Origin: Siphonodentalium dalli
Taxonomy: Eukaryota; Mollusca; Scaphopoda; Gadilida; Siphonodentaliidae
Length of the DNA stretch: 64,000 nt
Reading direction: 5' to 3'
Assembly: GCA_032622095.1 (NCBI GenBank)
Contig: CP136064.1
Coordinates: 37,498,426-37,562,425 of the forward strand
Under the pieces are notes generated by a model. That model did no database searches. It worked only from the letters and a program-made list of their open reading frames with translations, and was not told the origin of the DNA. Shown piece by piece: positions 22,682-63,462 of the stretch; the first letter of the stretch is position 1, and each line of letters opens with the position of its first letter. The position numbers and the translations under genes are program-made.

Positions 22682-22896
22682 ACAGTAATGCCCTAAGTAA
22701 TCGACCTCTCAACCAAAGCAGAATTATGGGTAACTTTTCAGGATTTAGTCGGAAATATGGCTTGTTGCCATTCATAGGAAAGCTCTCACTGAGAGCTTTC
22801 CGATGAATGGCAACAAGCCATATTTCCGACTAAATCCTGCAAAGTTACCCATAATTCTGCTTTGGTTGAGAGGTCGATTACTTAGGGCATTACTGT
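22682..22896. mobile_element. Near-perfect 215-bp palindrome (hairpin MITE)
   Basis: From ACAGTAATGCCCTAAG to the inverted CTTAGGGCATTACTGT with essentially no loop; arms of about 107 bp meet at GAGAGCTTTCC. Only a few bases differ between arms, implying recent origin or gene conversion. No obvious target duplication beyond a possible TA. Confidence 0.8.
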
Positions 22897-30959: not shown

Positions 30960-31500
30960 AATTTCTGTAACGCCCTGTGATATAACATTATGCATAAGTT
31001 CATATGGTACTTCTTTGTACGTTGTATCATCTGCCAGTTGCCTTTTATACTCATTAACGTACCAATCTACTGTATTAATAGAAAGCCCCGGACCTTTGTC
31101 TGCAGGGGCCACTACAAAATCTGGCCTACTACAAAATGTATTGAAGCGTTTAAATTGATTTTGATTAATATTGTTGTTATGAATGGACATTTCGGAATTC
31201 ATGACCAAATCTTCATTTAAGTCGCTAATAACATCGATTGTACCCTGTACATTTTTAGAGGGTAGGTCAGGATGAAGAATGTGTGCATACGTTATAGGGT
31301 TAGTGGACTTATTAGGCTGGACCTTATAAGCGGAAACCATATTTATGGTTGATCTGTTGACCTGTTCGACAGCTCGGTATGTTTCCTCTTTAATGGTATC
31401 AGCAAGGGTTTTAGGATTCCCTAGTAACGGCGTCATTATGAAAATAGGTCCCATCTCAAGAACTTGTATAAGGTCTTCTGGTAGACCATGGCACGAAATT
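30960..31500 (-). pseudogene. Penelope-like reverse transcriptase fragment (N-terminal part)
   Basis: An open minus-strand stretch of about 165 residues contains VVAPADKGPGLSI followed by YVNEYKRQLADDTTYKEV. The ADKG-plus-downstream Y and L-x-D-x-x-x-Y arrangement is the conserved region just upstream of the RT fingers in Penelope-like elements (the DKG motif). The catalytic RT core and endonuclease are absent. The frame runs into unrelated repeat at its C-terminus, so this is a truncated retroelement copy. Confidence 0.6.
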
Positions 31501-31564
31501 AAATACTTTACTCTTTAAAGATGTCTGTTATTTGATACATAATAGTGAATATTCATCTAATATC

Positions 31565-32934
31565 CTATCGTATGTCGACATTATAATGGTGTATAAGAGA
31601 TACAGAAACGCACGATATTTACCTGCCTAAATGGCTGACATATCCTGACTAGATCGACCTCATGTATGTTCATGTCGTACGTCGGCATTATAGTGGTGTA
31701 TAAAAGATACAGAAACGCATCATATTTACCTGTCTAAATGTCTGACACATCCTGACTAGATTAACCTCCTGTGTCATCCTGTCGTATGTCGGCATTATAA
31801 TGGTGTATAAGAGATACAGAAACGCATGATATTTACCTGTCTAAATGTCTGACACATCCTGACTAGATCGACCGCCTGTATGTTCCTGTCGTATGTCGGC
31901 ATTAAAATGGTGTATAAGAGATACAGAAACGCATCATATTTACCTGTCTAAATGTCTGACACATCCTGACTAGATTAACCTCCTGTGTCTTCATGTCGTA
32001 TACCGGCATTATAATGGTGTATAAGAAATACAGAAACGCATGGTATATACCTATCTAAATGTCTGACACATCCTGACTAGATAAACCTCCTGTGTGTACC
32101 TGTCGTATGTCTGCATTATAATGGTGTATAAGATATACAGAAACGCATGATATGTACCTGTCTAAATTCTGACAGATCCTGACTAGATTGACCTCCTGTT
32201 TCTTTTTCTCGTATGTAGGCATTATAATGGTGTATAAGAGATACAGAAACGCATGGTATATACCTATCTAAATGTCTGACACATCCTGGCAAGATCAACC
32301 TCCTGTGTCTTCCTGTTGTATGTCTGCATTATAATGGTGTATACGAGATGCAGACACGCATCATATTTACCAGTCTAAATGTCTGACACATACTGACTAG
32401 ATTAACTTCCTGTGTCTTCCTATCGTATGCCGGCATTATAATGGTGTATAAGAGATACAGAACGTATCATATTTACCCGTCTAAATGTCTGACACATCCT
32501 GATCAGATTAACCCCCTGTGTCTTCCTGTCATATGTTGACATTATAATGGTGTATAAGAGACACAGAAACGGATCATATTAACATGTCTAAATGTCTGAC
32601 ACATCCTGACTAGATTAACCTCCTGTGTCTTCCTGTTGCATGTCGGCATTATAATGGTGTATAACAGATACAGAAACGCATGATATTTACCTGTCTAAAT
32701 GTCTGACACATCCTGACCAGATTAACCTCCCGTGTCTTCCTGTCGTAAGTCGGCATTATAGTGGTGTATAAGAGATACAGAAACGCATGATATTTACCTG
32801 TCTAAATGTCTGACACATCCTGATTAGATCGACCTCCTGTATGTTCCTGTCGTACGTCGGCATTATAATGGTGTATAGGAGATACAGAAACGCATCATAT
32901 GTACCTGTCTAAATGTCTGACACATCCTGACTAG
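31565..32934. repeat. 107-bp satellite, about 13 copies
   Basis: Unit phrases: CATTATAATGGTGTATAAGA, GATACAGAAACGCATCATAT, CTGTCTAAATGTCTGACAC and CATCCTGACTAGATTAACC. The GTGTATA word recurs every 105-109 bp. Copies differ by several percent and none is coding. Confidence 0.85.
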
Positions 32935-33960
32935 AGTCGATAGCTCCACCCGTTTCCGAGATCTCGTCTGCGCATGCGCGAAGCTGGCGTCGCACGGGCT
33001 CGGCGACCCGATAAAATTCGTATCCGGGTCAAGATACATTCACATAGCAAATTTCAAGTCGATAGCTCCACCCGTTTCCGAGATCTCGTCTGCGCATGCG
33101 CGAAGTACGGGCTCACCAATACGACAACGACGACCGCCTGGTCAAACTAGACACACGTACCAAGTTTCGTCCCGATCGATCGAGAATCGTAGATTTGTAT
33201 AAATGACAGACAAACAAACATAGAGACAGACAGACTGAGGTCTTCAAAATATATATGAGACTAGCCGATGAGCCCGACGTTGTCCGGGCTATTAAAGAAC
33301 CAAATTTCTAGTCCGGGCTATTCAAAAACCAAATTTCAAGTCGATAGCTCCACCCGTTTCCGAGATAGATCTCGTCTGCGCATGCGCGAAGCTGGCGTCG
33401 CACGGGCTCGGCAACCCGATAAAATTCCTATCCGGGGCAAGATACATTCACATAGCAAATTTCAAGTTGATAGCTCCACCCGTTTCCGAGATCTCGTCTG
33501 CGCATGCGCGAAGCACGGGCTCGCCAATACGACAACGACGACCGCCTGGTCAAACTGCACACACGTACCAAGTTTCGTCCCGATCGATCCAGAATCGTAG
33601 ATTTGTATAAATGACAGACAAACAAACATACAGACAGACAGACTGAGGTCTTCAAAATATATAGTAGACTAGCCGATGAGCCCGACGTTGTCCGGGCTAT
33701 TAAAAAACCAAATTTCTAGTCCGGGCTATTCAAAAACCAAATTTCAAGTCGATAGCTCCACCCGTTTCCGAGATCTGGTCTGCGCATGCGCGAAGCTGGC
33801 GTCGCACGGGCTCGGCGACCCGATAAAATTCGTATCCGGGGCAAGATATATTCACTTAGCACATTTTCAAGTCGATAGCTCCACCCGTTTCCGAGATCTC
33901 GTCTATTGCAGAAATGTTGTAAGAGTACTATGGCCCGTATATCTCTCTGCAGATGCTAAT
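32935..33960. repeat. GC-richer tandem repeat, 407-bp higher-order unit
   Basis: GATAGCTCCACCCGTTTCCG recurs at about 32,940, 33,062, 33,342, 33,470, 33,751 and 33,873, two per larger unit. The CTAGCCGATGAGCCCGACG phrase at 33,262 and 33,669 sets the 407-bp period. Units carry CTGCGCATGCGCGAAG and end in a GACAGACAAACA microsatellite, like tails of non-autonomous retroelements. Open frames here mirror the repeats. Confidence 0.75.
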
Positions 33961-50544: not shown

Positions 50545-50643
50545 TATTAAAACGAAGATTTGGTTTGGTTTTGTTTATTAGGGTTTATCGTCGTTCTAGC
50601 CGCTAGGCCACACAAGACGTTGCCAATTTTACGGGTGGAGGAA
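50545..50643. repeat. Left half of a SINE-like host repeat interrupted by the Polinton
   Basis: TTTGGTTTTGTTTATTAGGG and GGGTGGAGGAA resemble a repeat I recall as very common in molluscan DNA (GTTTATT-GGTTTAACGTCC ... GGTGGAGGAAAGCC). The matching right half would start at 63,463 (CACCGACC, AACTGACAAACTGGCCCA). The assignment is from memory. Confidence 0.4.
50638..50643. repeat. Left 6-bp target-site duplication GAGGAA
   Basis: GAGGAA directly precedes the AGTAGTG element end, and an identical copy at 63457-63462 directly follows the other end. A 6-bp duplication is the hallmark of Polinton/Maverick integrases. Confidence 0.9.
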
Positions 50644-51130
50644 AGTAGTGTATAGGAGTAATCTTTCCGTATACTTGATAGAAGGAGAGTTATAGTAAGA
50701 CTTATTAAAAACTATTTCTAGGCAGATGGTTATAGTAAGCAAACTATTTCTAGGCAGATGGTTATAGTAAGCAAACTATTTCTAGGCAGATGGTAATAGT
50801 AAGCAAACTATTTCTAGGCAGATGATATAGTCAGGCTAACTAGTAACTATTTGAAGGAATTAGTACGCACGATTGAATACATGTATTGATATATAGGTTA
50901 GTTATGATAGATTAGTAAAATAATGAGATGAATTATTCGCTAGTGAATAACCTCGTGCATGTAAAAAACCACAAGGCTAAAACACATGGAATATTTGTTA
51001 GTGTCGGAACTTTTTCTTCTTTATTGTAGATTTGTAGGTAACACTATTCGATCTCATAAAACTCGATATTACAGAGTCTCGTAGAAAACGAAATGTGGAA
51101 CCCTTCACACTTTAGTTCCTTTAATGAATA
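50644..51130 (+). repeat. Left terminal inverted repeat
   Basis: Begins AGTAGTGTATAGGAG. It pairs with 62971-63456 at about 98% identity by eye. It contains four or five tandem copies of CAAACTATTTCTAGGCAGAT at 50,705-50,825. It ends near TTTAATGAATAT, about 88 bp before the first gene's stop codon. Confidence 0.9.
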
Positions 51131-51217
51131 TTAATAATATATATCATAAACAAACACAATTATATCAATATTTTGATCAATATATATTAAATATATCATA
51201 AAACAAACATAATCAAA

Positions 51218-51505
51218 TCAATCTTTTTTAACATATGGACAGTCTGGTCTTAAATGATCTCCGTTACATTCATAACATCTAACACGAGTCTTTTTAAATT
51301 TATCAGCTGAATTCAATTTAGATATCCTATACAAAATTTTAGCATTTTTATCAGCTAATATTGAAATTTGTTGTCCTATCTCTTCTATATCAGCCAAATT
51401 ATCTAAAAGTTTTCTTTTTAAACTCCCTCTGTTCTTTCCTTTCTGAGAAACTTCGAATTCACTGTCAGAAGACATTTTGATTTTAAAAATATTATAAAAA
51501 AGCAT
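51218..51505 (-). CDS. Small zinc-knuckle protein of the Polinton
   Basis: Codes for up to 95 residues. ATG at 51505 or, more likely, the second ATG at 51475 (MSSDSEFEVS, 85 aa), because the first ten residues are low-complexity. The middle is a predicted helical/coiled stretch (LADIEEIGQQISILADKN), and the C-terminus carries one CCHC-type knuckle, CYECNGDHLRPDC (C-x2-C-x3-H-x4-C, one residue shorter than the retroviral spacing). Likely binds nucleic acid, perhaps in the virion core or assembly. It is the last gene of the leftward series, 23 bp after the protease. A degenerate inverted copy of its 3' end lies at about 62,870-62,930. No close family is recognised. Confidence 0.7.
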   Translation of the reverse strand: MLFYNIFKIKMSSDSEFEVSQKGKNRGSLKRKLLDNLADIEEIGQQISILADKNAKILYRISKLNSADKFKKTRVRCYECNGDHLRPDCPYVKKD

Positions 51506-51528
51506 TTCATTTATAGCACAAAAAAAAA

Positions 51529-51981
51529 CTAAATATCGAACAACACGGGTAGATGTTGTTTACACCAATTATAAACGTAAGTATCATTATGAAAACCGGG
51601 TTTATTTAAAACGTATAGACAGTCCAATCCTCTACAAGTATGATACAAATAATATAATACGAAATAACCACACAAAAAAGAAGATATATGTTGAATATAA
51701 TTTGTACTATAATACAATCTACCATATTTAGCTAACATATTTTTCAACTGCTCAGATGGAGGTAATCCGATAGGATCAAAATATATTATAAAATTATCAT
51801 CGCGTTTCCATATACATATCCAATGTTCACCATCTAACCAAGATGGGTCAGTATTACAAATTAAACCTCTGTTCGGCTTAATAGTATCAGGTAATTCGTC
51901 CAAAGCATAAACGCCTATTATCATAGAATTCAAAACTGAGTCTGATTTTAATGCATCAGATATATCTAAGTTGCTCAACAT
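51529..51981 (-). CDS. Adenain-type cysteine protease (Polinton PRO)
   Basis: 150 residues from the ATG at 51981, which lies 4 nt beyond the capsid gene's stop codon; upstream extension would need a GTG. Order and spacing of catalytic-type residues fit the adenovirus protease/Ulp1 (C48/C5) fold: H53 in DGEHWICIW, D69 in YFDPIG, Q97 in YIQH and C104 in FLCGYF. Length is shorter than adenovirus proteases (about 200 aa) but close to Polinton ones. In relatives this enzyme cleaves capsid and core precursors during maturation; substrates here are presumably the pVI-like and core-like products. No frame break. Confidence 0.85.
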   Translation of the reverse strand: MLSNLDISDALKSDSVLNSMIIGVYALDELPDTIKPNRGLICNTDPSWLDGEHWICIWKRDDNFIIYFDPIGLPPSEQLKNMLAKYGRLYYSTNYIQHISSFLCGYFVLYYLYHTCRGLDCLYVLNKPGFHNDTYVYNWCKQHLPVLFDI

Positions 51982-51985
51982 AATG

Positions 51986-53293
51986 TTAAAATATTCCACC
52001 CGTGTAAACGCTACGTTCCCCGCTAATTTCTATAGAACTATCGTATTCGGCATATACTATTACATTTACTGTATCTGGTAAAGCTGTTGAAAATTTTGCA
52101 CTTAACCGTGCACTACCTCGCTGTTTTGGATGCCAAACTAAACTATCAGCATTATGATCTGCAGTTAAATCAAAACCGAAAGTTGTAAAACCATTGGCAT
52201 AATCAAAAAAGCTAACTCTGAAAGATTGCTCGCAATATAATTTATTTATAGAATTCAAAAATGTGTAATATGAACCTACATATAAATCATCATCGAAAGT
52301 TTGTTCGTATTTATGCCCATTCACGGTTTTACCATTAACAGACAATTCCATTTCGTAGCAATCATAATGTTTAAAATTAAAAGGAGAAGATGCTATAGTA
52401 CCATTAAATGCTGTATTATCTACTAAAAATATTAACACTCTCTTAGGAAGAAATGGATCACCCAAAAACAAATCGTCTTTAATCAAGCTTAAAGTCCTAG
52501 GTGCTACGCTAAATGTTTTTAACGAAACTCTATCCAAAGGATATTGAGCATTGGTTCCACTTAATAACTTTTTGCTTATTTCATTTGAAGTGACATCACT
52601 TAACTCTACGGTTCGTACAAACAATTTAGTATCTGACAGCTCAATCTTATAATCACCAGCACTACCTTGTAAACAAAAAGTAGGCTTTGATCTATGCAGT
52701 CTGAGTTTTATGGGTACGTTTGGAATTAACAATTTTGGTTGATTAAACATGTCCAAATGTAGTTTACCGCATAATTGAATTTTTTTTCCAATATTACCGT
52801 CTTTAATTATTCCAAGTAACTGCCTACCTCTGGCAATGTCTGCCGGTACATCATCCAAAGTCCCACCTTTCTGAGGTATAAATAAAGTTGTTCTCTCTAA
52901 TTGATTTTCTCTTGTAGAACTTAAGAAAGTTTCTATGTAAGATCTATAAGCATAATATCGACCAACTCCACATTCTACACCGTTTAATAATAAATCAGCT
53001 CTCTCGAATAAAGAATGAAGAAAATTATTTATTGGAAATGCGTGTTGATCGCCTGCGAAAACGGTTCCATCGGTTTTCGATATTTTAACGTCGGTTTGCA
53101 AATAACTTTCCGAAAGATCAACATAATGTGCAGATGGAGACTCTAAAAAGAACTCTAGTACGTTACTATTTGAATAATTTGAATTCGATGGATGTTTCTC
53201 TGTAAATGAACCGTCTGTTATAGTTACCACAGTAGGCGGAATTTCAAAAACATCCACCTCGCTCTTAGAAACTGGACAGCTGTTGGGATTCAT
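51986..53293 (-). CDS. F54H12.2-like protein, major capsid candidate
   Basis: 435 residues, ATG at 53293 directly abutting the TAA of the preceding gene. It has the hallmarks of the widespread invertebrate F54H12.2-like family: an early EIPPTVVTITDG segment, YVDLSESYLQ, INNFLHSLFERADLLLNG (about 88-105), LHLDMFNQPKLL, SPFNFKHYD and, near the end, LPDTVNVIVYAEYDSSIEI. The family occurs beside transposon integrases in many animals. A beta-rich composition and position next to protease and pVI-like genes suggest a jelly-roll capsid protein; this role is inference, as is major versus minor status. Overlap-free but tightly packed with its neighbours. A structure prediction would test the double jelly-roll idea. 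Confidence 0.75.
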   Translation of the reverse strand: MNPNSCPVSKSEVDVFEIPPTVVTITDGSFTEKHPSNSNYSNSNVLEFFLESPSAHYVDLSESYLQTDVKISKTDGTVFAGDQHAFPINNFLHSLFERADLLLNGVECGVGRYYAYRSYIETFLSSTRENQLERTTLFIPQKGGTLDDVPADIARGRQLLGIIKDGNIGKKIQLCGKLHLDMFNQPKLLIPNVPIKLRLHRSKPTFCLQGSAGDYKIELSDTKLFVRTVELSDVTSNEISKKLLSGTNAQYPLDRVSLKTFSVAPRTLSLIKDDLFLGDPFLPKRVLIFLVDNTAFNGTIASSPFNFKHYDCYEMELSVNGKTVNGHKYEQTFDDDLYVGSYYTFLNSINKLYCEQSFRVSFFDYANGFTTFGFDLTADHNADSLVWHPKQRGSARLSAKFSTALPDTVNVIVYAEYDSSIEISGERSVYTGGIF

Positions 53294-53659
53294 TTATTCA
53301 AAAATATCACGTTTTGTTTTTCGTCTCTTCCTACGTCTTTTTGAAGGAATATCCGAATATTCTTGTAATTTACGTCGTTTTGATGGAATATCCGAATTAT
53401 ATTGTAATTTACGTTTAGGCCGTAAAAGATCTAAAGCTGCTTCTTTACCTCGATTTCGAGTAGATTCTGATAAATTTTGCCCACTCAATATATCACTACC
53501 AACATTAGAGGCTGTTTCTAAACCTTTCGTTAAAAGAGATTTTCCCAGATTTTTTGCAATTGGCGCAATTGATCTGGCTAATTTACCAAAAATAGAACCA
53601 AGTCCGTAACCTCTCTGATACCTATCTCCTATAAAAATAGGAATAGGACTATTCGCCAT
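53294..53659 (-). CDS. pVI-like membrane-active/basic virion protein
   Basis: 121 residues, ATG at 53659. After a short start comes GYGLGSIFGKLARSIAPIAK (about 17-36), then a second helix to about residue 60, an amphipathic pattern like the adenovirus protein VI N-terminus, with a G-G-rich protease-like site. The last third is strongly basic (KRKLQ, two SDIPSKRR repeats, RRKRRKTKR), including a duplicated QYNSDIPSKRRK/QEYSDIPSKRRR unit. Plausible roles are membrane disruption at entry and capsid-genome bridging. Stop and next start are fused as TAA-ATG. Assignment rests on pattern and neighbourhood. Confidence 0.65.
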   Translation of the reverse strand: MANSPIPIFIGDRYQRGYGLGSIFGKLARSIAPIAKNLGKSLLTKGLETASNVGSDILSGQNLSESTRNRGKEAALDLLRPKRKLQYNSDIPSKRRKLQEYSDIPSKRRRKRRKTKRDIFE

Positions 53660-53712
53660 AACTTTAAATAATGAAACATCTATTTATATACATTTATATT
53701 TAATATCAATCC

Positions 53713-54801
53713 TTATCCAATCAAAATGCGTTTAAATAATAAAACTAGAACAGTTTTACCATAATCCGTCCAAGGAGGTGGCATACCTGTAGAATCACGA
53801 ATATATATCGAAATAGTGTCAAAATTCTTATGATGTATAGGAAAAAATTGCAAATTTGCGAATTCATAATATGTTGTTGATACAATATCATCAGAACGTG
53901 GGCATATTACTTTCAATAATTGTGAATTAGAATCGCCTACTATACTATGTGTACATATATCTGAATAAATATAAAGAGCGTCTATATGATCCAATTGATT
54001 AGTTACAATTAAAAAACAGTCTTTGGATTTTCCACCGGTATCTTTTAATTTTAGTTGATAATTTTCACGCAAATTAAGAAGATATCCCAATTCGGAAGTC
54101 CTTGTAATTTGCAAATCCATCGCCAACGAATAACGAGACATGCTTGTATGGTTTGCCATTCTAGTGAAACAAAGGTAGTTCACGTTTTGACGTTTTCTCA
54201 CCTTAATGTCAATAACTACATCCCCGATTAAATCCTCAAATATGGTTTGGGACTCTTTCGCATCGATTGAATTCAAACCTGGTTCGATTAATTTATATTT
54301 CGTCTTTTCTAATTCTGACATAAATTCAGAATCTTTGTAAAAATGCAAAATTAATTTTCGTTGAACTAATTGCATCCTATCTATCAAATCTTCGAACGAA
54401 CATTTGTCATCAAAAATAACACCATATTCAATCTTTGTAAATACACTTTTCCTCCATCTAATCGGACCTTTAACCCGAAGTTTCCTAGCAATAATACCGT
54501 AATTGGGATCTCTAACAATTGGTAAATCAGTTTCTGGCGTCAAGAAATTCATATCCACCACTATTCCATAAACAAATGCATAAGATTGATCATCTGTGGA
54601 AAAGGTAAAATTTCTTTGTTCCAGGAGCGGGCTTTTAAATCTGGTTGGAATAATGGCTGATGATAAAGCTACACACCAATCATCCTCCTGTAACCGAATC
54701 TCACTAGGCAAACTCACGGTATATTCAGATAGTGAATTTCTGAATAAATCACCAGAAACATTAGACGGTAAAGTCACCGAAAACAGGCCCGTTGCTTCCA
54801 T
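53713..54801 (-). CDS. Virion-type protein of F54H12 elements, possible minor capsid
   Basis: 362 residues, ATG at 54801. The N-terminus FSVTLPSNVSGDLFRNSLSE, then EDDWCVALSSAIIPTR, matches a family repeatedly found next to F54H12.2-like genes in invertebrate genomes (typical theme: FYVTLPSN...N-x-x-x-x-F...L...W.VGL). No enzyme motif is seen. A predicted beta-rich fold and its position before the pVI-like and capsid genes suggest a structural protein such as penton or minor capsid. One ATAAAGAGCG motif falls inside the gene at 53,970. A 206-bp gap separates it from the integrase, the widest in the cluster, so it may start its own transcript. Confidence 0.65.
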   Translation of the reverse strand: MEATGLFSVTLPSNVSGDLFRNSLSEYTVSLPSEIRLQEDDWCVALSSAIIPTRFKSPLLEQRNFTFSTDDQSYAFVYGIVVDMNFLTPETDLPIVRDPNYGIIARKLRVKGPIRWRKSVFTKIEYGVIFDDKCSFEDLIDRMQLVQRKLILHFYKDSEFMSELEKTKYKLIEPGLNSIDAKESQTIFEDLIGDVVIDIKVRKRQNVNYLCFTRMANHTSMSRYSLAMDLQITRTSELGYLLNLRENYQLKLKDTGGKSKDCFLIVTNQLDHIDALYIYSDICTHSIVGDSNSQLLKVICPRSDDIVSTTYYEFANLQFFPIHHKNFDTISIYIRDSTGMPPPWTDYGKTVLVLLFKRILIG

Positions 54802-55007
54802 GTTTACTTAATTTAGGAGATGGAGACAAAAGTCCAACAGAACCCGATAGTAAACTAATCCAAATAGACGGTGTGTCCACGCCGTGTATACTAATATTTA
54901 ATATAGCAGAAACACATACTATATAAAGCAAAAATACTTGACTGATATACACAACCGTCCTTTGGAAACTTTATTATTGAAAAAAGTCCATTTTGACGAT
55001 TGTCGTT
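54802..55007 (-). promoter_or_regulatory. Candidate internal promoter and poly(A) signal between integrase and virion genes
   Basis: On the minus strand AATAAA (54,970-54,975) lies about 33 nt past the integrase stop codon. A TATA-like GCTTTATATAG (about 54,919-54,929) lies about 120 nt before the next ATG. This is the only gap over 60 bp in the gene cluster, so it probably separates an early ATPase-integrase transcript from the virion-gene transcript. Inference from sequence only. Confidence 0.4.
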
Positions 55008-56126
55008 TTAATCTGAGGTCGTGATCCATTCTCTTGGAATGTACGAATCGAAACTGGCTGGATAGCCGCTCCATCTAACTTTTATTTGATCCCCGTCTCG
55101 TTCTAATACACGTTCAATTTTCCACATAGTATCGGAATCAATCGTTACAGGTGATAACTCGCTCTCGTAGAATGTACCCAATATTTCCTCTGAATTGAGA
55201 TCAGCTATTTTATATCTATGTGGTTTAGAACCAGGTACCAAAGACGTAATCTTAAACACTTCATAAGTATAATTGGCCAAAAAACCCTTTTCAAACTTAT
55301 TTTTTAATTTTACCAAGCGAACGCTCTCTCCCACTTTAAATTTTGCTTTTGTAAGTGGTAATTTATAAGTCTTCGATTCATTTCTAGCTGCAATTGCTTG
55401 CGATGTCAAACACGACACATCTTTCGGTGCCATTTTAATCGCTCTGTGTATCTTCGAATTATATGAATTCACCAATTTAGGCAAAACTGTTAAATAGCGC
55501 ATAGATTTAGATTTGAAGAAATATTTATACATTTTAGACTTTAAAGAGCGTTGTACTCTCTCAACCAAAGCGGCTTTCGTGTCATAATTTCCCGTAGAAT
55601 ATAAATGTACACCATTCTTCTTCAGAAATTGCTTAACGTTAGCGTTGTAGAACTCGGTTCCGCGATCAACATGTATACCGTTCGGTCGTTTGCGCTGTTT
55701 AAAAATCATTTCTAAAGCCTTCATTATGGAAACACCAGTCTTGTTCTTTAATGGTTTAACAATTAAAAATCTTGAAAAGCAATCAATGCAAAACAACAGG
55801 TAGCAATAACCATCGTTTTGCTTGGATATATTTCGCACATCACTCAAATCCATCTGCCATATATTATTTACAGAATAAGACTCTGTTCTTGACCTAGGAA
55901 ATATTATTCGTTTCGGCCTATGCAACGAGTACGAATTTTGTTTTTGTAACCAAAGTCGAACATTTTTTCTCGATATTTTTTTTTTTACTTCCTTATACAA
56001 ATTATATTCAGATCCATAGGATGAGCGGTGAGATGCATCATAATAAATCGATGATAATATATTATCAATTTGACGAGGAGTCTGATGTCCATTTAAAATG
56101 CTTCTGTTTTTTGCCTTTGGGGGCAT
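55008..56126 (-). CDS. Retroviral-type integrase with C-terminal chromodomain (Polinton INT)
   Basis: 372 residues from the first ATG at 56126; any longer reading needs a TTG start. The rve core has D93 (WQMDLSD), D154 (IHVDRGTEF) and E189 (ALVERVQ), a D-D-35-E spacing. The N-terminal region lacks an obvious HHCC zinc site. The C-terminal 40 residues (WKIERVLERDG...IKVRWSGYP..FDSYIPREW) form a chromodomain with its aromatic positions, which could direct insertion to particular chromatin. Related to C. elegans F54H12.3. Catalyses strand transfer of the element ends, giving the 6-bp target duplication. It overlaps the previous gene by 62 nt in another frame, so translation may use internal initiation or a separate mRNA. 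Confidence 0.9.
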   Translation of the reverse strand: MPPKAKNRSILNGHQTPRQIDNILSSIYYDASHRSSYGSEYNLYKEVKKKISRKNVRLWLQKQNSYSLHRPKRIIFPRSRTESYSVNNIWQMDLSDVRNISKQNDGYCYLLFCIDCFSRFLIVKPLKNKTGVSIMKALEMIFKQRKRPNGIHVDRGTEFYNANVKQFLKKNGVHLYSTGNYDTKAALVERVQRSLKSKMYKYFFKSKSMRYLTVLPKLVNSYNSKIHRAIKMAPKDVSCLTSQAIAARNESKTYKLPLTKAKFKVGESVRLVKLKNKFEKGFLANYTYEVFKITSLVPGSKPHRYKIADLNSEEILGTFYESELSPVTIDSDTMWKIERVLERDGDQIKVRWSGYPASFDSYIPREWITTSD

Positions 56127-56688
56127 CTGCAACCATCAGATCTGCTTTACGAAATTTATTTCCTATGAAATGTGTTGGTATATTATTATCTCGTAATGAT
56201 CGGGACAAACTATCCCAATTTCTAAGTGCACTGGGTTTCCTGACCTTGCTAGAAGGTATTATATCATTTACCAAATCAGTTATGCTTCCGATTGGCTTGT
56301 CAGATAATGAAATCATTCCACTGTCGTTAATGTCAATTCCTGGCATTCTTTTTAAATGCGATAAAAATAACGAGCCTTTTTTCTGGTAAATTTTTGGCAA
56401 ACTCTCAATCGCTAAATCAATTTGGTTAGGTTCAGATAAAGCGACGTCACCGGCGGGCTCTTTCGCGATTTTAACTGGAATCGGCGTTGTTTTTATAGAA
56501 TTCTTAGCCATGTCATATTCAATAGACGTGGAATTAATTTTTCTTTTCTTAACTGACTCGGGCATATCTTTATCGTCTAATATTTGATGCATTTTTTGTC
56601 TCACATCCTCTGTTTTCAACGATTGAATAGACTGAGAATTTTGCCAGTTTGCAAAAGTCTTAAAAGGCACCAAAACCATTTTTTCCAT
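56065..56688 (-). CDS. Unrecognised 207-aa Polinton protein
   Basis: ATG at 56688, 2 nt after the previous gene's stop; M4 is an alternative. Lysine-rich N-terminal half (KKRKINS), then a conserved-looking centre (YQKKGSLFLSHLKRMPGIDIND) and RPSALRNWDSL-like stretch near 145-155. The centre resembles proteins often found in F54H12-type clusters, whose function I do not know. Its C-terminal 20 codons overlap the integrase gene in another frame. Could be a virion or packaging cofactor; no motif settles it. Confidence 0.6.
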   Translation of the reverse strand: MEKMVLVPFKTFANWQNSQSIQSLKTEDVRQKMHQILDDKDMPESVKKRKINSTSIEYDMAKNSIKTTPIPVKIAKEPAGDVALSEPNQIDLAIESLPKIYQKKGSLFLSHLKRMPGIDINDSGMISLSDKPIGSITDLVNDIIPSSKVRKPSALRNWDSLSRSLRDNNIPTHFIGNKFRKADLMVADAPKGKKQKHFKWTSDSSSN

Positions 56689-56690
56689 AT

Positions 56691-57008
56691 TCAGAAAACT
56701 TTGCCTAAAATATCTCCTAAAACAGGAATTAAACTAGCAGCCAGTGCAGCCAAAAAACCGCCGTGTTGTAATTTTTTTTTCCTGCTTTTAACAGGATTAG
56801 ACTTCTTTGACAAATGACGAATAGAACTTTTAAATGGTCTTAAATTAGCTTTAATTTTAGACGAAATTGGTACATTTCCTTTAAGCAAATTATTACAACA
56901 TTCAGATAGACTGTCTAATCTCGGTCTGTTTAATGCCCTCACGTCTCCAGTGCGTAACATGTTTCTCAAATATTTGGCATTTTTTCTTAATTTCACGCTG
57001 GGGCCCAT
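56691..57008 (-). CDS. Basic protein with hydrophobic C-terminus, core/pX-like
   Basis: 105 residues, ATG at 57008, overlapping the end of the ATPase gene by 16 nt. Residues 1-75 are rich in K/R/N (RKNAKYLRNMLR; SKIKANLRPFKSS; SRKKK), the last 27 are hydrophobic (QHGGFLAALAASLIPVLGDILGKVF), with a GG at the junction that would suit an adenain-type cleavage. The layout recalls adenovirus core/pX-mu type precursors and is repeatedly seen in F54H12-type clusters. Probable roles are genome condensation and membrane association. Confidence 0.6.
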   Translation of the reverse strand: MGPSVKLRKNAKYLRNMLRTGDVRALNRPRLDSLSECCNNLLKGNVPISSKIKANLRPFKSSIRHLSKKSNPVKSRKKKLQHGGFLAALAASLIPVLGDILGKVF

Positions 57009-57589
57009 ATCGTAGGATTTTCACTGAGCACGTCTGATCTCAATCGAAGGTTATCTGGACAAGTTTGGTTGAAATCCACCAGTAAATGAGAATATGGATC
57101 TGTTGTACACAATTTATATGCTTTTGATAAATTATTAATACCGCATTGGGTAGATAAGAAATTTATCTGACCACAATCTCTAGGAGATTTGAATAAAATA
57201 AAATAATTCGCGTTTAACGATAATTTTCTACATTTTCTTTCAAAAAGATTATGCGTCACGTATACCACACTACATCCTTCGTGATGTGATTTTCTAGCGA
57301 ATATATCTGTTACATTATCGATCTCTTTGTCAATATGATCCATATCATCCAATATTAATAAATCGCAATCGCACAACGATTCTGGAATTTGGTTTACTAA
57401 TTCTACATTATCAGACACCTGTTGATCACAATTAGGAGTCACGTAAGTTATTTTTTCCGGAACTGGGAACATTAATTTATCTTTATTTTCGATTAAACTA
57501 TATATAAACGTAGATTTCCCACTAGCTGAAGGGCCATTTATTATGGCCCTAAATATATCCTGAAAACATACGTAATTGTACGTTTTCAT
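56993..57589 (-). CDS. Packaging ATPase (A32/FtsK-HerA-like, Polinton ATP)
   Basis: 198 residues, ATG at 57589. Walker A GPSASGKST (19-27) and Walker B DLLILDD (76-82) are followed by VTHNLF (111-116) as the sensor-type strand. The small size and these motifs fit the A32-like genome-packaging ATPases of Polintons, adintoviruses and large DNA viruses, which drive DNA into preformed capsids. It is the first gene of the leftward series. Upstream on the minus strand is TTAAAGAGCGTTTG about 17-26 nt before the ATG, one of the dispersed ATAAAGAGCG-type motifs. Confidence 0.85.
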   Translation of the reverse strand: MKTYNYVCFQDIFRAIINGPSASGKSTFIYSLIENKDKLMFPVPEKITYVTPNCDQQVSDNVELVNQIPESLCDCDLLILDDMDHIDKEIDNVTDIFARKSHHEGCSVVYVTHNLFERKCRKLSLNANYFILFKSPRDCGQINFLSTQCGINNLSKAYKLCTTDPYSHLLVDFNQTCPDNLRLRSDVLSENPTIWAPA

Positions 57590-57603
57590 TGTGTTTTATT
57601 GTC

Positions 57604-57616
57604 AAACGCTCTTTAA
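57604..57616 (-). promoter_or_regulatory. ATAAAGAGCG-type motif just before the ATPase start
   Basis: Minus strand TTAAAGAGCGTTTG. It resembles a TATA-like word followed by GAGCGT, but is too close to the ATG to be a standard TATA box unless a leaderless mRNA or downstream start is used. Function unknown. Confidence 0.3.
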
Positions 57617-58320
57617 TTCAGTAAAACACAATTTGTTTTCCCACACACTGGATGTCCGGCAAAATTGACAAGAGAGAATCTGATGTATACATAACAGTGG
57701 GTAGCCATATATAATCACACGCTTTGTCGACTCGATGCTATCGCGTTACAAACCGTATCGGCAGTTTATTGTCGCGAAACACCTATTGAATTCAAATTTT
57801 ACTACCTGTTGTCGACCACCGCCCATTGTCGACTCCATGCTAATCCATTACGAACTGTCACCTCTGTTTAATATGGCGGAACCAATCTAAAGCCAGTTGA
57901 AATAAAAAATTTACCACATAGGGGCGCGGAAGGGTGTTGATATATCGTGTAAATTTAAGTTTGCGGTAAAAAAAAGGATTTTATCGTGTTGAACAGATAG
58001 TTCAACTATAAACATTGGTAGAGGACATGAATAGTGTTCGGGAACGATTGATCAGCGCGATAGAGTTGGACACAACACCATCATGGATTAGACGGCCTGC
58101 TGTTGCAAGAAATGATCAACGATAGTTTCGACGAAACATTAGATGATGATCAATTCCATGACGCTCCTGCATGTGTAACATTCTACTTTCTCATTAAAGG
58201 GAATAGGGCCCCCAATATATATTTTCACATGTCTAATGCGTTTTTTAAAACTAGTATTAGCATTGCGAATAATATGCGGGGAAACAATTAATTGCTACAT
58301 GTGTTTTCTTAATAATCAGG
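57617..58320. other. Polinton centre; possible remnant of a rightward gene
   Basis: On the plus strand ATG at 58,027 opens 32 codons (MNSVRERLISAIELD...) that stop; another frame then runs 58,103-58,291 with SFDETLDDDQFHDAP. A strong donor CAG/GTAAGTG follows at 58,320. It might be a short leader or a broken rightward gene, at the place where Polintons carry an opposite-strand polymerase gene, but no polymerase motif is present. Confidence 0.3.
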
Positions 58321-60062
58321 TAAGTGCAATTTCTATACGTAAACAAAACTGTTACAGCAGTAGTAAGAATGATGCACTCAACATTTTATAGTCGGATCTG
58401 CGCAAAATTAGTTCAATTATGTTAAATTCATCATGTTTACAGACAAGGATGGCCTTGTCGGTGGGTATCCTGTGAAAAAAATCGCATAAACAGTATGTTT
58501 TGGTCATACGTTTGTAAACAAAAGCATTAAAAAGTTACATTTCCAGGGTTTGAAATATTATTGTGGTAAACATAAAGAGCGTTGTATAATACCTGATATG
58601 TAATGAAGAGCGTTTATTCTATTTTATGCGCGATTAGTCAGTAACATTTTGCTGTATTCTGTAACACAATTAGTAGAGTGTTTGCATAGGTGTTTCTGAT
58701 AACATACTGTTTACCCGATAATCCTGTTCAGCAACAAATATTCAATTCAACGCCGTCATGACACATACATAATTCCATAAAATTTAACATGCTGGTGCTA
58801 TATTGGTTTTAAGTTGGACCATATATCTCAGATGATTAATCTTGTCTATACAATTCAACCAAATCGCTGTTGGAATACAGGTTCATAGATATTGCTCTGC
58901 ACACCTATAGTGATGGAAATTATTCCAGTCCACGCGCGATGCGCTTGGCAACATACGAATATTAGTTGCCCGATAGGAGATTGTGTATACACTTCCAACT
59001 AAATCGAGTTCCATCTATAAATAGAACATAATTGCGTAAACAAAGCTGTTACAGTATATTGTAAACAAAACTGTTGTAGTGAAATTTAACATGCTGATGA
59101 TAATTTGGGTTTGTTTTCTTCCGCCTCGGCCACGTACATCTCTATATCCTTTTCGATACAACATCCATATGCAATACAAGTTCAGAAATATTGCTCTGCA
59201 CACCTATTGTATGCAGATATAATTGAGTGCTGTCCACCCTATTTAACTATCTCAATTGTTTTTATTAGGTAGATTTCCGTGCCGATTTAAAAATGTGCAG
59301 ATAATGAACGGGGACATGCATATAAAACACACATTAACCTAGTCTAACGACATCGAGCAATTCCTGATGTAATGTTGCAACTAATTGGCTTAATATTATT
59401 GTGTGAGATAATTGCATACTATTGATAGCCATATGATTGCAAGTACATGTGCTCGTGTGTGAACATAAGCATTTTATATTCTGGTTCATCATTATACTTT
59501 ACAGAAATGCGAGAAAAATAATTACTCTAAATGTTTAAATTTCAAAATGGCGGTGAGTAATGAGTTTTATGCATGTGTGCAGATTCCAGTTTAAAAACGA
59601 ACGACCGGGCATTGTTTTTCTCCGATCGTGTTTACATTAAATGCTAAATTGCGTACGGATTAACCAGCATGTTTTTTTCCAACTCATGTTGCCATTATGA
59701 TTAAGAGCAGAATTATTTGCCATAATCAGTTAAGTGTTATCTTTATTTATTATGTAAACAAAACTGTTACAGTATTTATTTTTTTCAAAAATTAAAAAAA
59801 ATTTGAATTGGAATGTTAATTTGTAGAAATTAGAGCGCATTTGCTAGATAAATGTAAATATACTGTTACGATATGCTTAGCCACAACGTTTAGACAAATA
59901 AGATTTTACATAAAAAAAAAATTGTAAAACTATGATTATTGTTTTTAGTTTGCATGTTTAAAGATAACTTTCCGTAGAATCTGAATTGCAACAATGTTAA
60001 TTTGGATACTGTAATATACTATCTAAAAGTAATAGTGTAACAGTATCCGTTTTTTTTATATA
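58320..60062. repeat. Polinton right arm: repeated GTAAACAAAACTGTTACAG blocks
   Basis: GTAAACAAAACTGTTACAG-type words occur at about 58,338, 59,035, 59,058, 59,752 and, diverged, 59,854 and 60,037. The larger unit AAATTTAACATGCTG...ATTGCTCTGCACACCTAT at 58,780-58,910 recurs at 59,083-59,215. No coding frame. Confidence 0.6.
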
Positions 60063-60067
60063 TATAA

Positions 60068-60720
60068 TTAAGAGTTGCATACAAACAGATAATAAACGCT
60101 CTTTATCGATAAATGTACAACCATATTTAAGTTAAATTATTAGCGCCCTTTTAAGAATTATGATGTGAAGAAGACATATTTATTAACAATTCTAGGGTAA
60201 AATTATTCCAATTTTTTGTTGCTGTGATATTGAAACACTTTTGGTATTGAAATTATAAAATGAAATCTTAGTGCCCTTTTAAGACATCTTGTTTATAAAT
60301 AGGATAAAATAATAAAATAAATCTAAGTGTCATTTTAAGATATCTGGGATGAACAAAGTATACTGTATCAAAATATTACGAGGGATTGAAAGAGTTGCAT
60401 ACAAACAGATAATAAACGCTCTTTAACGATAAATTTTCAATCATATTTAAGTTAAATTATTAGCTCCCTTTTAAGAATTATGATGTGAAGAAGACATATT
60501 TATTAACAATTCTGTGGTAAAAATCAAATTTTGCTGTAATATTGAAACACTTTTGATATTGAAATTATAAAATGAAATCTCAGTACCCTTTTAAGACATC
60601 TTGTTTATAAATAGTATAAAATAATAAAATAAATCTTAGTGCCATTTTAAGACATCTGGTTTAAACAAAGTATACTGTGTGCAAATAAGAAAATAAATCT
60701 TAGTGTCACTTTAAAACAAC
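60068..60720. repeat. Polinton right arm: 320-bp tandem duplication
   Basis: GAGTTGCATACAAACAGAT at 60,072 and 60,392 starts two units about 320 bp long, each with AATAAACGCTCTTTA, TTAAGTTAAATTATTAGC, GAATTATGATGTGAAGAAG and several CCCTTTTAAGACATCT-like words. Copies are about 90% alike. Confidence 0.75.
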
Positions 60721-61175
60721 TGCTTCAAACTTCCTCAATATGTTTCGCTTCGATTAATATAGAAACTTTATATAATTTATTGTTTTAAATTACATAGAAT
60801 ATATGTTGAACAAGATAATAATTAATTAAAAGTTATCTGAAATCATAATATAATAAACTTATCTGACTATTGAATCCATGCTTTGATTTCCTATTTTAGC
60901 TGGCTTATATAGCATACATTGGAATGTTTACCGTAACATACCTTAAATATGCAAATTTGACAGGTGTAGTATAACTTATTCGTTTTGTAAGGACGGGTCG
61001 TTAACGAATGAGTTCTTTGAAATATGATCCAAGCTAGGTAGCCTAGTTGAATATATTAGTCGCCTTGTACAGATATATGTCGACATGAATTATATTATTC
61101 ATGTGGTCGGATAAAATGGGAGGGTACATTATGATAGGCATACGAGAACATTTAACAAGATAGCTCGACTGATTT
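60721..61175. other. AT-rich spacer in Polinton right arm
   Basis: No frame or clear repeat recognised. Confidence 0.35.
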
Positions 61176-62060
61176 GTTTGGGAGTATAGATAGCTTGAGT
61201 AAATTAATGTGTTACTGTATATAAACAGAGCTCGACATGAATTCTCGACGAATGATATTAGATTATTCGGCTTGGGTCGTATGACATCATTTTGATGGGA
61301 CCTAAAGATAGAATGAATAAATTAATGTCTTTTTATATAAACAGACGATTCTTATAGGTAAAATTGAGAGATAGAACTATACTTCGATGGATTATCTGTT
61401 GTTTAATAGGTAAGTAGCTTTTACTATGCAAAACAGAGGTGGACATGAATTCTCGACGAAGACCTCATCATGTTTAGTGCTATATGTTGGTAGATTATTC
61501 GACTTAAAGAAAGATGGCTCGAATGACATCATTTGTTGGGACTAAAGATAGAATGAATTTTCCTTATATAAACAGATACATTCGCATAGGTAAAATTGAG
61601 GCAGAGTAAAAACATTTGAAATATCAGTTGATTGCGTCAACAGTCAACATTTTTTCAAAATTTTAGCAATAAATTGATTAAAGTTTTATTGAATTTTCAT
61701 ATTATTTTATTGACATATAAAGTTTGTGCTTGAATTTTGTTGACGAAAACATTAGTGTTTTCCTAAGATTATAATATTTTTACATTTTTTGATTAAAGAC
61801 AAAACATTTATTGTCTTTTACAATTATTGTGGTAATAAAAAGGGACTTTTTATGCTTGCGATCGAAACATATAAAGTTAACATTGAAATTGTTTTTTAAA
61901 AATTCAGCTTTCAATTGAGATATTTGATTAAGGATTTTCATATTTTTTTGACGCATTATAACATATAACTTCAATTTTGTTGACGAAAATGTAGTTTTAA
62001 TTGGTTTATCGTGCTTTTACATATTTCATTAAAAGATAGATTTTTTTGATTTTTCTGAAA
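61176..62060. repeat. Polinton right arm: two further duplicated blocks
   Basis: ATAAACAGAGCTCGACATGAATTCTCGACGA (split: CTCGACATGAATTCTCGACG) at 61,225 recurs at 61,438, each followed by GATTATTCG, ATGACATCATTT, TAAAGATAGAATGAAT and TAGGTAAAATTGAG. Then TTGATTAAAG, TTTTCATATT and TTCAATTTTGTTGACGAAAA recur at about 61,675-61,760 and 61,922-61,990. No coding frame. Confidence 0.55.
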
Positions 62061-62469
62061 TATTGAATTTGTGTTGGAATTGAAATACGTTGTCTTGATA
62101 TAAACCGAAAATAGTTACTATTTGTTCCAGTTTTCTTTCCTAAAATACTATAGATTATGAATTAACGTTGGTGTGATATAAATAACTAATTATTCACAAT
62201 TTAACATGCTTGATACACTTATTTTATATATTTCAACATAAGTTGATTGATTTGAATATATTTCCATCATTCATAATGTTTAAAGGAACCGATAATGGTT
62301 ATACATGGTTATACAAATGTGTTGCCTACTAATCTACAGAAGAACGTTCCTAAAAAAGTTCAATGTGTTTAGACCTGTGGTTTTACATGCATAGGTTTAT
62401 TCGCTAACGAATATATCATTGTATCATTCATTAACATATATCTATCGTTTAAGATCTAAAATGAACTTA

Positions 62470-62850
62470 ATAAAACAACTGTTACAATTTACAGGGGAGC
62501 TAACTCTGTTCTTTATATTCCAATTAATATTTGTAGATTTAGTTTACAACTCTGATATTTTTGACTAACCTAGAAATAGTTTGCCTGAGTATAACCCATA
62601 GCCTAGAAGTAGTATTTTAAGACCAACCTAGAAATAATTAGTCTGACTTTAAATAATGATTAATTTGGATACTGTTACAATTCACAGGGGATCTAACTCT
62701 GTTCTTTATATTCGAATTAATATTTGTAGATTTAGTCAGTATATGTTATGAAATTTTTGAATAACCTAGAAATAGCTTGTTTGAGTATAACCTAGAAGAA
62801 GTATTTTAACACCAACCTAGAAATAGTTAGTCTGACTTTAAATATTGATA
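62470..62850. repeat. Polinton right arm: 190-bp tandem duplication with CTAGAAATAGTT words
   Basis: CTGTTACAATTTACAGGGGA at 62,480 and CTGTTACAATTCACAGGGGA at 62,672 start two units. Each contains TAACTCTGTTCTTTATATTC, ATTAATATTTGTAGATTTAG and ACCTAGAAATAGTT or similar at 62,569, 62,617, 62,765 and 62,816, the same word that is tandem in the TIRs. Confidence 0.7.
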
Positions 62851-62869
62851 CATTTTTGCCAGAAGATAT

Positions 62870-62930
62870 TTCGACGGGGAGACCAGACTGTCCATATCTT
62901 AACAAAAGATTGATTTGATTATGTTTTTTG
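62870..62930 (+). pseudogene. Degenerate inverted copy of the zinc-knuckle gene's 3' end
   Basis: GACCAGACTGTCCATAT then TTAACAAAAGATTGATTTGATTATG-like sequence matches, in inverted orientation, 51,205-51,255, which encodes the last knuckle residues and stop. It sits just inside the right TIR, as the left copy sits inside the left TIR. It therefore marks an older, longer inverted repeat now diverged. Confidence 0.65.
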
Positions 62931-62970
62931 ATATCTGTTTGTATACTAAGATTTATTCATATACCATTTA

Positions 62971-63456
62971 TATTCATTAAATGAACTAAAGTGTGAAGGG
63001 TTCCACATTTCGTTTTCTACGAGACTCTGTAATATCGAGTTTTATGAGATCGAATAGTGTTACCTACAAATCTACAATAAAGAAGAAAAAGTTCCGACAC
63101 TAACAAATATTCCATGTGTTTTAGCCTTGTGGTTTTTTACATGCACGAGGTTATTCACTAGCGAATAATTCATCTCATTATTTTACTAATCTATCATAAC
63201 TAACCTATATATCAATACATGTATTCAATCGTGCGTACTAATTCCTTCAAATAGTTACTAGTTAGCCTGACTATATCATCTGCCTAGAAATAGTTTGCGT
63301 TACTATACCATCTGCCTAGAAATAGTTTGCTTACTATACCATCTGCCTAGAAATAGTTTGCTTACTATAACCATCTGCCTAGAAATAGTTTTTAATAAGT
63401 CTTACTATATCTCTCCTTCTATCAAGTATACGGAAAGATTACTCCTATACACTACT
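62971..63456 (-). repeat. Right terminal inverted repeat
   Basis: Inverted copy of 50644-51130, ending CTCCTATACACTACT. Differences are mostly single-base indels in the CCATCTGCCTAGAAATAGTT tandem section (63,270-63,390). Confidence 0.9.
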
Positions 63457-63462
63457 GAGGAA
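63457..63462. repeat. Right 6-bp target-site duplication GAGGAA
   Basis: Identical to 50638-50643. Confidence 0.9.

Follow-up and report, generated by a model that had tools for sequence, protein, structure and literature searches.

The window analysed here is a stretch of 64,000 nucleotides from the genome of the scaphopod mollusc Siphonodentalium dalli (GenBank assembly GCA_032622095.1, contig CP136064.1, positions 37,498,426–37,562,425 of the forward strand), and it contains, at positions 50644–63456, a Polinton-type element with a total length of 12,813 bp, in which capsid and integrase genes are intact and a gene for the protein-primed DNA polymerase B (PolB) is missing. The sequence AGTAGTGTATAGG is read at both ends of the element, which is bounded by terminal inverted repeats (TIRs) with arms of 498–499 bp and by a 6-bp target-site duplication; nine open reading frames (ORFs), all open and all on the minus strand, lie between positions 51218 and 57589 (Table 1). 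The initial annotation had described the ends, the duplication and the reading frames as intact, and all three were confirmed. Tandem repeats of 32 bp occur within both TIRs (50709–50831 and 63270–63391); this subterminal repeat is quite different in other copies of the element, so the ends seem to be swapped as modules.

Structure prediction, proposed in the initial annotation for the 435-aa and 362-aa proteins, gave for the former the double-jelly-roll fold of Polinton/Maverick major capsid proteins (MCPs) and for the latter, where a minor capsid protein would have a single jelly-roll, an unusable model (pLDDT 36). The assignment of the 374-aa ORF to the RVE integrases is clear, and the 198-aa ORF resembles packaging ATPases (FtsK/A32/IVa2-type) through a short Adeno_IVa2 match (residues 15–56) and the sequence GPSASGKST, which we take to be a Walker A motif. 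Matches of the 156-aa ORF are all weak (SidE_DUB in Pfam, E 0.0038, below the cut-off; SdeA and ASFV S273R in the PDB, E 0.02 and 0.63, respectively); of the capsid protein, protease, ATPase and integrase named in the initial annotation, the protease is therefore a candidate only, while the MCP fold, the rve match and the Adeno_IVa2 match bear out the others. The starts of the 156-aa and 374-aa ORFs (GTG and TTG) come from a bacterial-code ORF listing, and a nearby ATG is more likely in both, the host being a eukaryote. A C-terminal motif of the 95-aa ORF is presumably a CCHC-like zinc knuckle with atypical spacing; the 121-aa ORF could, from its composition, be a DNA-condensing core protein. 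The MCP has no PDB match by sequence, and NCBIfam gave no match for the MCP, the 362-aa protein, the protease or PolB; a scan of viral contigs with an MCP alignment returned 19 pattern matches, none of which was confirmed, and neither the phage records nor Rfam yielded a match.

Table 1. Features of the Polinton-type element and of its target site, in window coordinates
Feature	Position	Strand	Remarks
Target-site duplication GAGGAA, 6 bp, left copy	50638..50643	.	Flank reading
Left TIR	50644..51142	+	Starts AGTAGTGTATAGG; ~4 copies of a 32-bp tandem repeat at 50709–50831
ORF 95 aa	51218..51505	-	Weak eIF3g Pfam match below cut-off
ORF 156 aa, probable Ulp1/adenain-type cysteine protease	51529..51999	-	Weak matches
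ORF 435 aa, MCP, double jelly-roll, F54H12.2 family	51986..53293	-	
ORF 121 aa	53294..53659	-	Very basic C-terminus
ORF 362 aa, position-based candidate for a minor capsid (penton) protein	53713..54801	-	Two homologues
ORF 374 aa, retroviral-type integrase (rve)	55008..56132	-	Pfam PF00665, E 4.9e-17; PFV integrase, E 2.6e-7
ORF 207 aa	56065..56688	-	No Pfam match
ORF 105 aa	56691..57008	-	No Pfam match
ORF 198 aa, packaging-type ATPase	56993..57589	-	Pfam Adeno_IVa2, 22.8 bits (cut-off 21)
Non-coding DNA common to PolB-carrying copies	57590..58356	.	95–98% identity to L022, L024 and L032
Non-coding arm in the place of PolB	58357..62958	.	~4.6 kb
Right TIR	62959..63456	-	11 substitutions in 498 aligned sites relative to the left TIR
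Target-site duplication GAGGAA, 6 bp, right copy	63457..63462	.	Flank reading

The right arm of the element (57.6–62.96 kb) contains no stop-to-stop frame longer than 92 aa, and a tblastn search of it with the 1312-aa PolB of a sister copy gave matches at chance level only (best E 1.5; among 20 base shuffles used as a control, 16 had a match, with a best E of 0.14). A degenerate, spliced or frameshifted PolB was considered for the right arm, and nothing was found above the shuffled controls. No replication gene of another kind was recognised by Pfam among the nine ORFs, several of which are without an assignment, and the right arm is free of long frames. The initial annotation, which had seen no frame of polymerase size and had suggested that an element with particle and integration genes would need a polymerase from outside, agrees with these results.

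A search of the host genome (2.23 Gb, nine contigs) revealed 98 MCP matches, two of which were second pieces and were set aside; 87 copies belong to the MCP family of the element, 68 of them being full length (a match of 1290 bp or more), and nine to a sister family at 49–53% identity. A PolB match of the element's own family lies in the right arm of 38 of the 68 full-length copies (in one of them 2.0 kb off, so rearranged), and there is none in the other 30, the element included. Among these 30, 17 have an element-type right end, six more an element-type right arm and seven neither; three of the seven were read (L033, L039 and L040), and all three are non-coding. The right arms read in 20 copies contain long minus-strand ORFs in five cases and are non-coding, in the position of PolB, in 15. 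The 1312-aa ORFs of L024 and L032 are PolB (PF03175, E ~1e-52), and L022, L026 and L027 have split or shorter frames; tblastn with the 1312-aa PolB matched exactly these five arms, and none of the eight gene-free palindromes described below. The element thus lacks the protein-primed PolB that its sister copies carry. The MCP frame is interrupted by stops in one of the 30 PolB-less copies versus six of the 38 PolB-carrying ones (stop-free in 29/30 and 32/38, respectively).

Reading for 9 kb did not reach the right end of the two longer PolB copies, L026 and L027, in which plus-strand ORFs of 475 and 165 aa are present; the plus-strand ORFs of L026 gave nothing above the Pfam cut-off, and a 163-aa form of the L026/L027 plus-strand ORF occurs in the PolB-less L038. 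There is also a third PolB family (38–39% identical, ~60 copies, many with a 1363-aa open frame, e.g., C8:90922943), and its copies score almost alike, so it is another abundant and very recent family; no F54H12.2-type MCP lies nearby in the two rows checked.

Several element-type right ends were found to face each other in pairs, no MCP being listed in the interval. The central 7.1–8.8 kb, read in eight such pairs (L013–L020), is in all eight a near-perfect palindrome without genes or capsid, with no stop-to-stop frame above 143 aa. The two arms are 99.0–99.95% identical in seven palindromes and 96.8–98.3% in the asymmetric L013, which is 97.8% similar to L014 over 2458 bp. One exact centre is common to five of the eight (L015–L018 and L020), L014 has another centre and that of L019 is its own and lies inside the ATPase gene. 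The centre half-site is present at 71 places genome-wide (reversed control, 0) and forms 28 facing centre pairs, 15 with a gap of 78 bases, seven with a gap of 4 and six with other gaps.

The outer ends of many of these elements were located with the 25-base motif AGTAGTATTAAGTAGAGGGAATATT, which was found, at up to three mismatches, at 97 places (reversed control, 0); 68 of these sites were paired by hand into 34 element-sized pairs, referred to as type B. Seventeen type-B pairs hold MCP and PolB, 11 a palindrome centre, one PolB alone and five none of these, two of the five having one centre half-site. Fourteen of the 17 elements with MCP and PolB measure 14,117–14,445 bp, and ten of the 11 with a palindrome centre 12,768–14,868 bp (the remaining one 10,071 bp); in seven of the 11 the centre is no more than 5 bases away from the point midway between the ends, and in the others it deviates by 60, 140, 153 and 2303 bases. 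Palindrome L019, with type-A-like ends, is 12,304 bp long with its centre at the midpoint, and its flanks share inverted similarity, so it may sit inside another repeat. The measured palindrome lengths are mostly 12.3–14.9 kb; since same-centre copies have inherited one length, only three or four palindrome origins are independent. Perfect 6-bp target duplications, each distinct, flank all five palindromes tested (GTCGAC in L019, GTAGTT in L015, located at C9:25595129–25609066, TGTGTA in L017, TACGTT in L016 and ATTCTC in L018). A fold-back artefact of the assembly was rejected, because the arms are less than 100% identical and, in all five palindromes tested, the flanks differ and carry target duplications.

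The part of the element at 57292–58356 is also found in the PolB-carrying L022, L024 and L032 (95–98% identity) and its part at 58188–59245 in L026 and L027 (about 95–96%), and the segments 59262–60929 and 60700–62900 have relatives in the palindromic satellites. For 59262–62900, PolB-less and palindromic elements yielded relatives; the five PolB arms that were read have none, though in L026 and L027 the reading stopped short of the right end. The element is not a simple deletion derivative, with ~4.6 kb of other DNA filling the position of PolB; nor is it a one-off, because 30 of the 68 copies have no PolB match, the non-coding replacement is found in 15 of 20 arms and the arm itself recurs elsewhere.

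A base-by-base comparison of the left part of eight copies, four with PolB and four without, indicates that the protease gene with the 95-aa ORF, the MCP gene, the 121-aa ORF and most of the 362-aa gene are 0–6 bases apart per segment of 366–1305 bp; the four PolB-carrying copies differ from the element by 0–4 bases per segment in these capsid-side genes. The variable codons comprise four synonymous and one non-synonymous in the MCP gene, and 13 and six, respectively, in the four genes together. The MCP gene of the PolB-carrying L003 is identical to that of the element over 1305 nt, and the outer TIRs of the two differ at 68 of 176 sites. The right arms of PolB-less copies are about 83–99% identical to the element's across long segments, with values as low as 72% in short stretches. 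A near-uniform gene module together with diverse arms and ends points to a recent joining of the module with older arms and ends; judging by these comparisons, TIRs, gene modules and right arms are exchanged among PolB-carrying and PolB-less copies. In a tree of a 536-bp arm piece, which contains repeats, palindrome arms appear at several places among capsid-bearing arms, grouping L016–L018 with L033 (support 1.0), L019 with L038 (0.96) and L013 with L025 (0.94); the tree lends support, short of proof, to repeated exchange between palindrome and capsid-bearing arms.

These results bear on the proposal of the initial annotation that the F54H12.2/F54H12.3 genes define a separate PolB-less virus-like lineage, living without a polymerase of its own. 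The 30 copies without a right-arm PolB match and the recurrence of the element's right arm at a second site would fit such a lineage, but the capsid-side genes match those of PolB-carrying copies exactly or almost exactly, the sister family has PolB nearby in five of nine copies and the right arms of PolB-less copies are spread over several branches among the palindrome arms. With F54H12.2 genes present in PolB-carrying elements as well (38 of 68), the gene does not mark a PolB-less lineage, and the proposal is highly improbable. Nor do all sister copies carry PolB, as they would if the element were just a deletion derivative; the copies are divided 38 to 30.

The second site of the right arm is that of L029, on another contig, where the arm differs from the element's by 27 substitutions in 6163 and the right TIR by none in 498, and where the flanking DNA is different. 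The simplest account, which these data suggest, is that the PolB-less form is copied and inserted as a unit. A further PolB-less copy, C6:110250297, has TATATA on both sides; it and the element are the two capsid copies in which both flanks were read. Alternatively, host ectopic recombination or gene conversion might have swapped right arms between inserted copies, the PolB-less copies being immobile. The mosaic structure, the many dispersed copies available for recombination and the left part of L029, read as far as the MCP match, are compatible with this, but a whole right arm is shared at two sites with different right flanks, and the target duplications of five palindromes are all different from one another, which makes such conversion a very poor candidate.

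The identity of the right TIR to that of L029 is paralleled at the inner left TIR, which is identical to those of PolB-carrying copies over 292 sites. TIR divergence is therefore no insertion clock here, and the 2% difference between the two TIRs of the element looks inherited rather than acquired after insertion. The few TIR differences on which the initial annotation had based a young age are real, but it is the near-identical copies, instead of TIR divergence, from which the element is judged to be young.

Taken together, the data make it quite probable that the element belongs, as a member without PolB, to a Polinton population that has recently been active and recombining, and that it has spread via an active PolB-carrying copy. 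In place of its right arm, the site of PolB (up to 1312 aa) in sister copies, the element has acquired non-coding DNA akin to the arms of the palindromic satellites. A PolB-carrying copy active in the same cell would provide the polymerase replicating the element from its intact TIRs, and an integrase, the element's own or the helper's, would insert it with a 6-bp duplication. Protein-primed polymerases copy a linear genome from its ends. For the wider group, a terminal-protein-primed polymerase has been described (PMC11071308). Template switching (snap-back) by a strand-displacing, protein-primed polymerase may have given rise to the palindromes: a jump to the just-displaced strand would generate an inverted duplication of one end, with the origin of that end present twice. 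The palindromes match a snap-back product, since their arms are of the right-arm type and their type-B ends match those of PolB carriers. The supply of helper PolB in trans, the packaging and the snap-back formation are inferred. That the elements of every class vary little in length is in keeping with a packaging limit, and vertebrate Mavericks likewise vary by only about 10% in size (PMC8097293), but the palindrome lengths represent only three or four independent origins.

The PolB-less elements and the palindromes could also be cut-and-paste passengers, comparable to non-autonomous forms of ordinary DNA transposons; an integrase recognising their TIRs would then be the sole means by which they move, within chromosomes, and PolB would not replicate them. 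What is observed directly amounts to TIRs and 6-bp duplications, and the Gypsy-type integrase is described as conserved both in Polintons and in TDD-4 and TDD-5, which are cut-and-paste transposons (PMC2836005). However, the arm-to-arm identity within seven of the eight palindromes mostly exceeds the identity between same-centre palindromes (97.6–99.5%), which fits one arm having been copied from the other and suggests copying before insertion; the exception, L017 and L018, which are 99.5% alike while the arms of L018 itself are 99.0–99.3% identical, speaks against this argument. The mosaics of TIRs, modules and arms suggest in addition that templates met during replication. On balance, cut-and-paste movement is unlikely.

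Spread through an active PolB-carrying copy, the preferred reading, can be extended to three tiers in one genome: PolB-carrying helpers, PolB-less capsid carriers and gene-free palindromic satellites. The satellites would be replicated by the helper as hairpins, packaged at about the normal genome length and inserted by the helper integrase, and the tiers would swap TIRs, modules and arms during shared replication; this full scheme is tentative, with the chances slightly against it.

Several points weigh against the preferred reading and its extension. All the evidence is genome sequence, and since the search scored the best 40 of 243 and the best 40 of 1363 candidates, neither the classes nor the counts are complete. 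Among the 30 PolB-less copies, 16, the element included, were read base by base and 14 were classed from listings; in one of these 14 (C3:283532219), a broken piece of PolB lies on the opposite side. The mosaics could also come from host-level recombination between inserted copies. Reading confirmed five of the 28 centre pairs as palindromes; the rest are recognised from the centre only, and 17 of the 28 fall within none of the end pairs identified. Finally, the 34 type-B pairs include no PolB-less capsid element, so the element class and most of the measured palindromes, with L019 as the exception, differ in the type of the outer TIR.

The palindromic satellites are the surprising part of the finding. 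Polintons are thought to replicate by protein-primed strand displacement and to form particles, both of which are hard to see; protein-primed replication combined with size-limited packaging would be expected to yield gene-free palindromes that have ends of the helper type, target duplications and little variation in size. They turn Polinton replication and particle formation into testable predictions in a living animal, and they suggest that Polintons can carry parasites of their own.

Other repeats in the window comprise two short near-perfect inverted repeats (98%) at 22682–22896 and 14202–14432, with 1 and 71 nt between the arms, tandem arrays of 164/320-bp units in inverted orientation at 11004–12424 and 18504–18955, and a tandem array of 107-bp units at 31500–33081.

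Among known systems, the element is closest to the Polintons/Mavericks (Polintoviricetes), with which it shares the RVE integrase, the double-jelly-roll MCP, the ATPase, the protease candidate and, in sister copies, PolB. Its TIRs start with the (AGT)2 motif and it has a 6-bp target duplication, both described for vertebrate Mavericks (PMC8097293). Unlike them, it has non-coding DNA in place of the PolB region, and its 12.8 kb compares with a mean of about 17 kb given for vertebrate Mavericks in the same source. Since near-identical copies have PolB, the element is a Polinton derivative deficient in one defining feature and not a new group. Among the titles and beginnings of abstracts listed in a literature search on palindromes and non-autonomous forms of Polintons/Mavericks, which lay outside Repbase reports and most subscription journals, no report of a PolB-less or palindromic satellite was found, and F54H12.2 was not found in the literature searched.

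Polinton-like viruses (PLVs) and virophages share the double-jelly-roll MCP with the element, and virophages depend on a helper. PLVs are described as mostly lacking pPolB and the RVE integrase (PMC11071308), whereas the element has this integrase, no substitute replication gene was recognised in it and its likely helper is a near-identical relative and not a giant virus. Large retrotransposon derivatives similarly consist of non-coding DNA between functional ends and are moved in trans (PMC6431247), but the present elements are DNA elements, of which one class retains capsid genes and the other is palindromic throughout.

The palindromes can further be compared with the defective-interfering panhandle genomes of adenoviruses and protein-primed linear plasmids. 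In adenovirus inverted-duplication genomes, both halves repeat one end, the termini are kept and the length is near normal. The halves of the palindromes likewise repeat one helper end, with helper termini kept, a near-normal genome length and no genes; this was observed for the centres of eight palindromes, and for both termini with the target duplication in five. For invertron plasmids, snap-back and panhandle replication intermediates are mentioned (PMC1864894). What sets the palindromes apart from defective-interfering genomes is their insertion, with target duplications, into a host genome and the presence of one centre motif at 28 loci. In their organisation, the palindromes resemble the defective-interfering (panhandle) genomes of a protein-primed virus, and we infer that they would depend on a helper.

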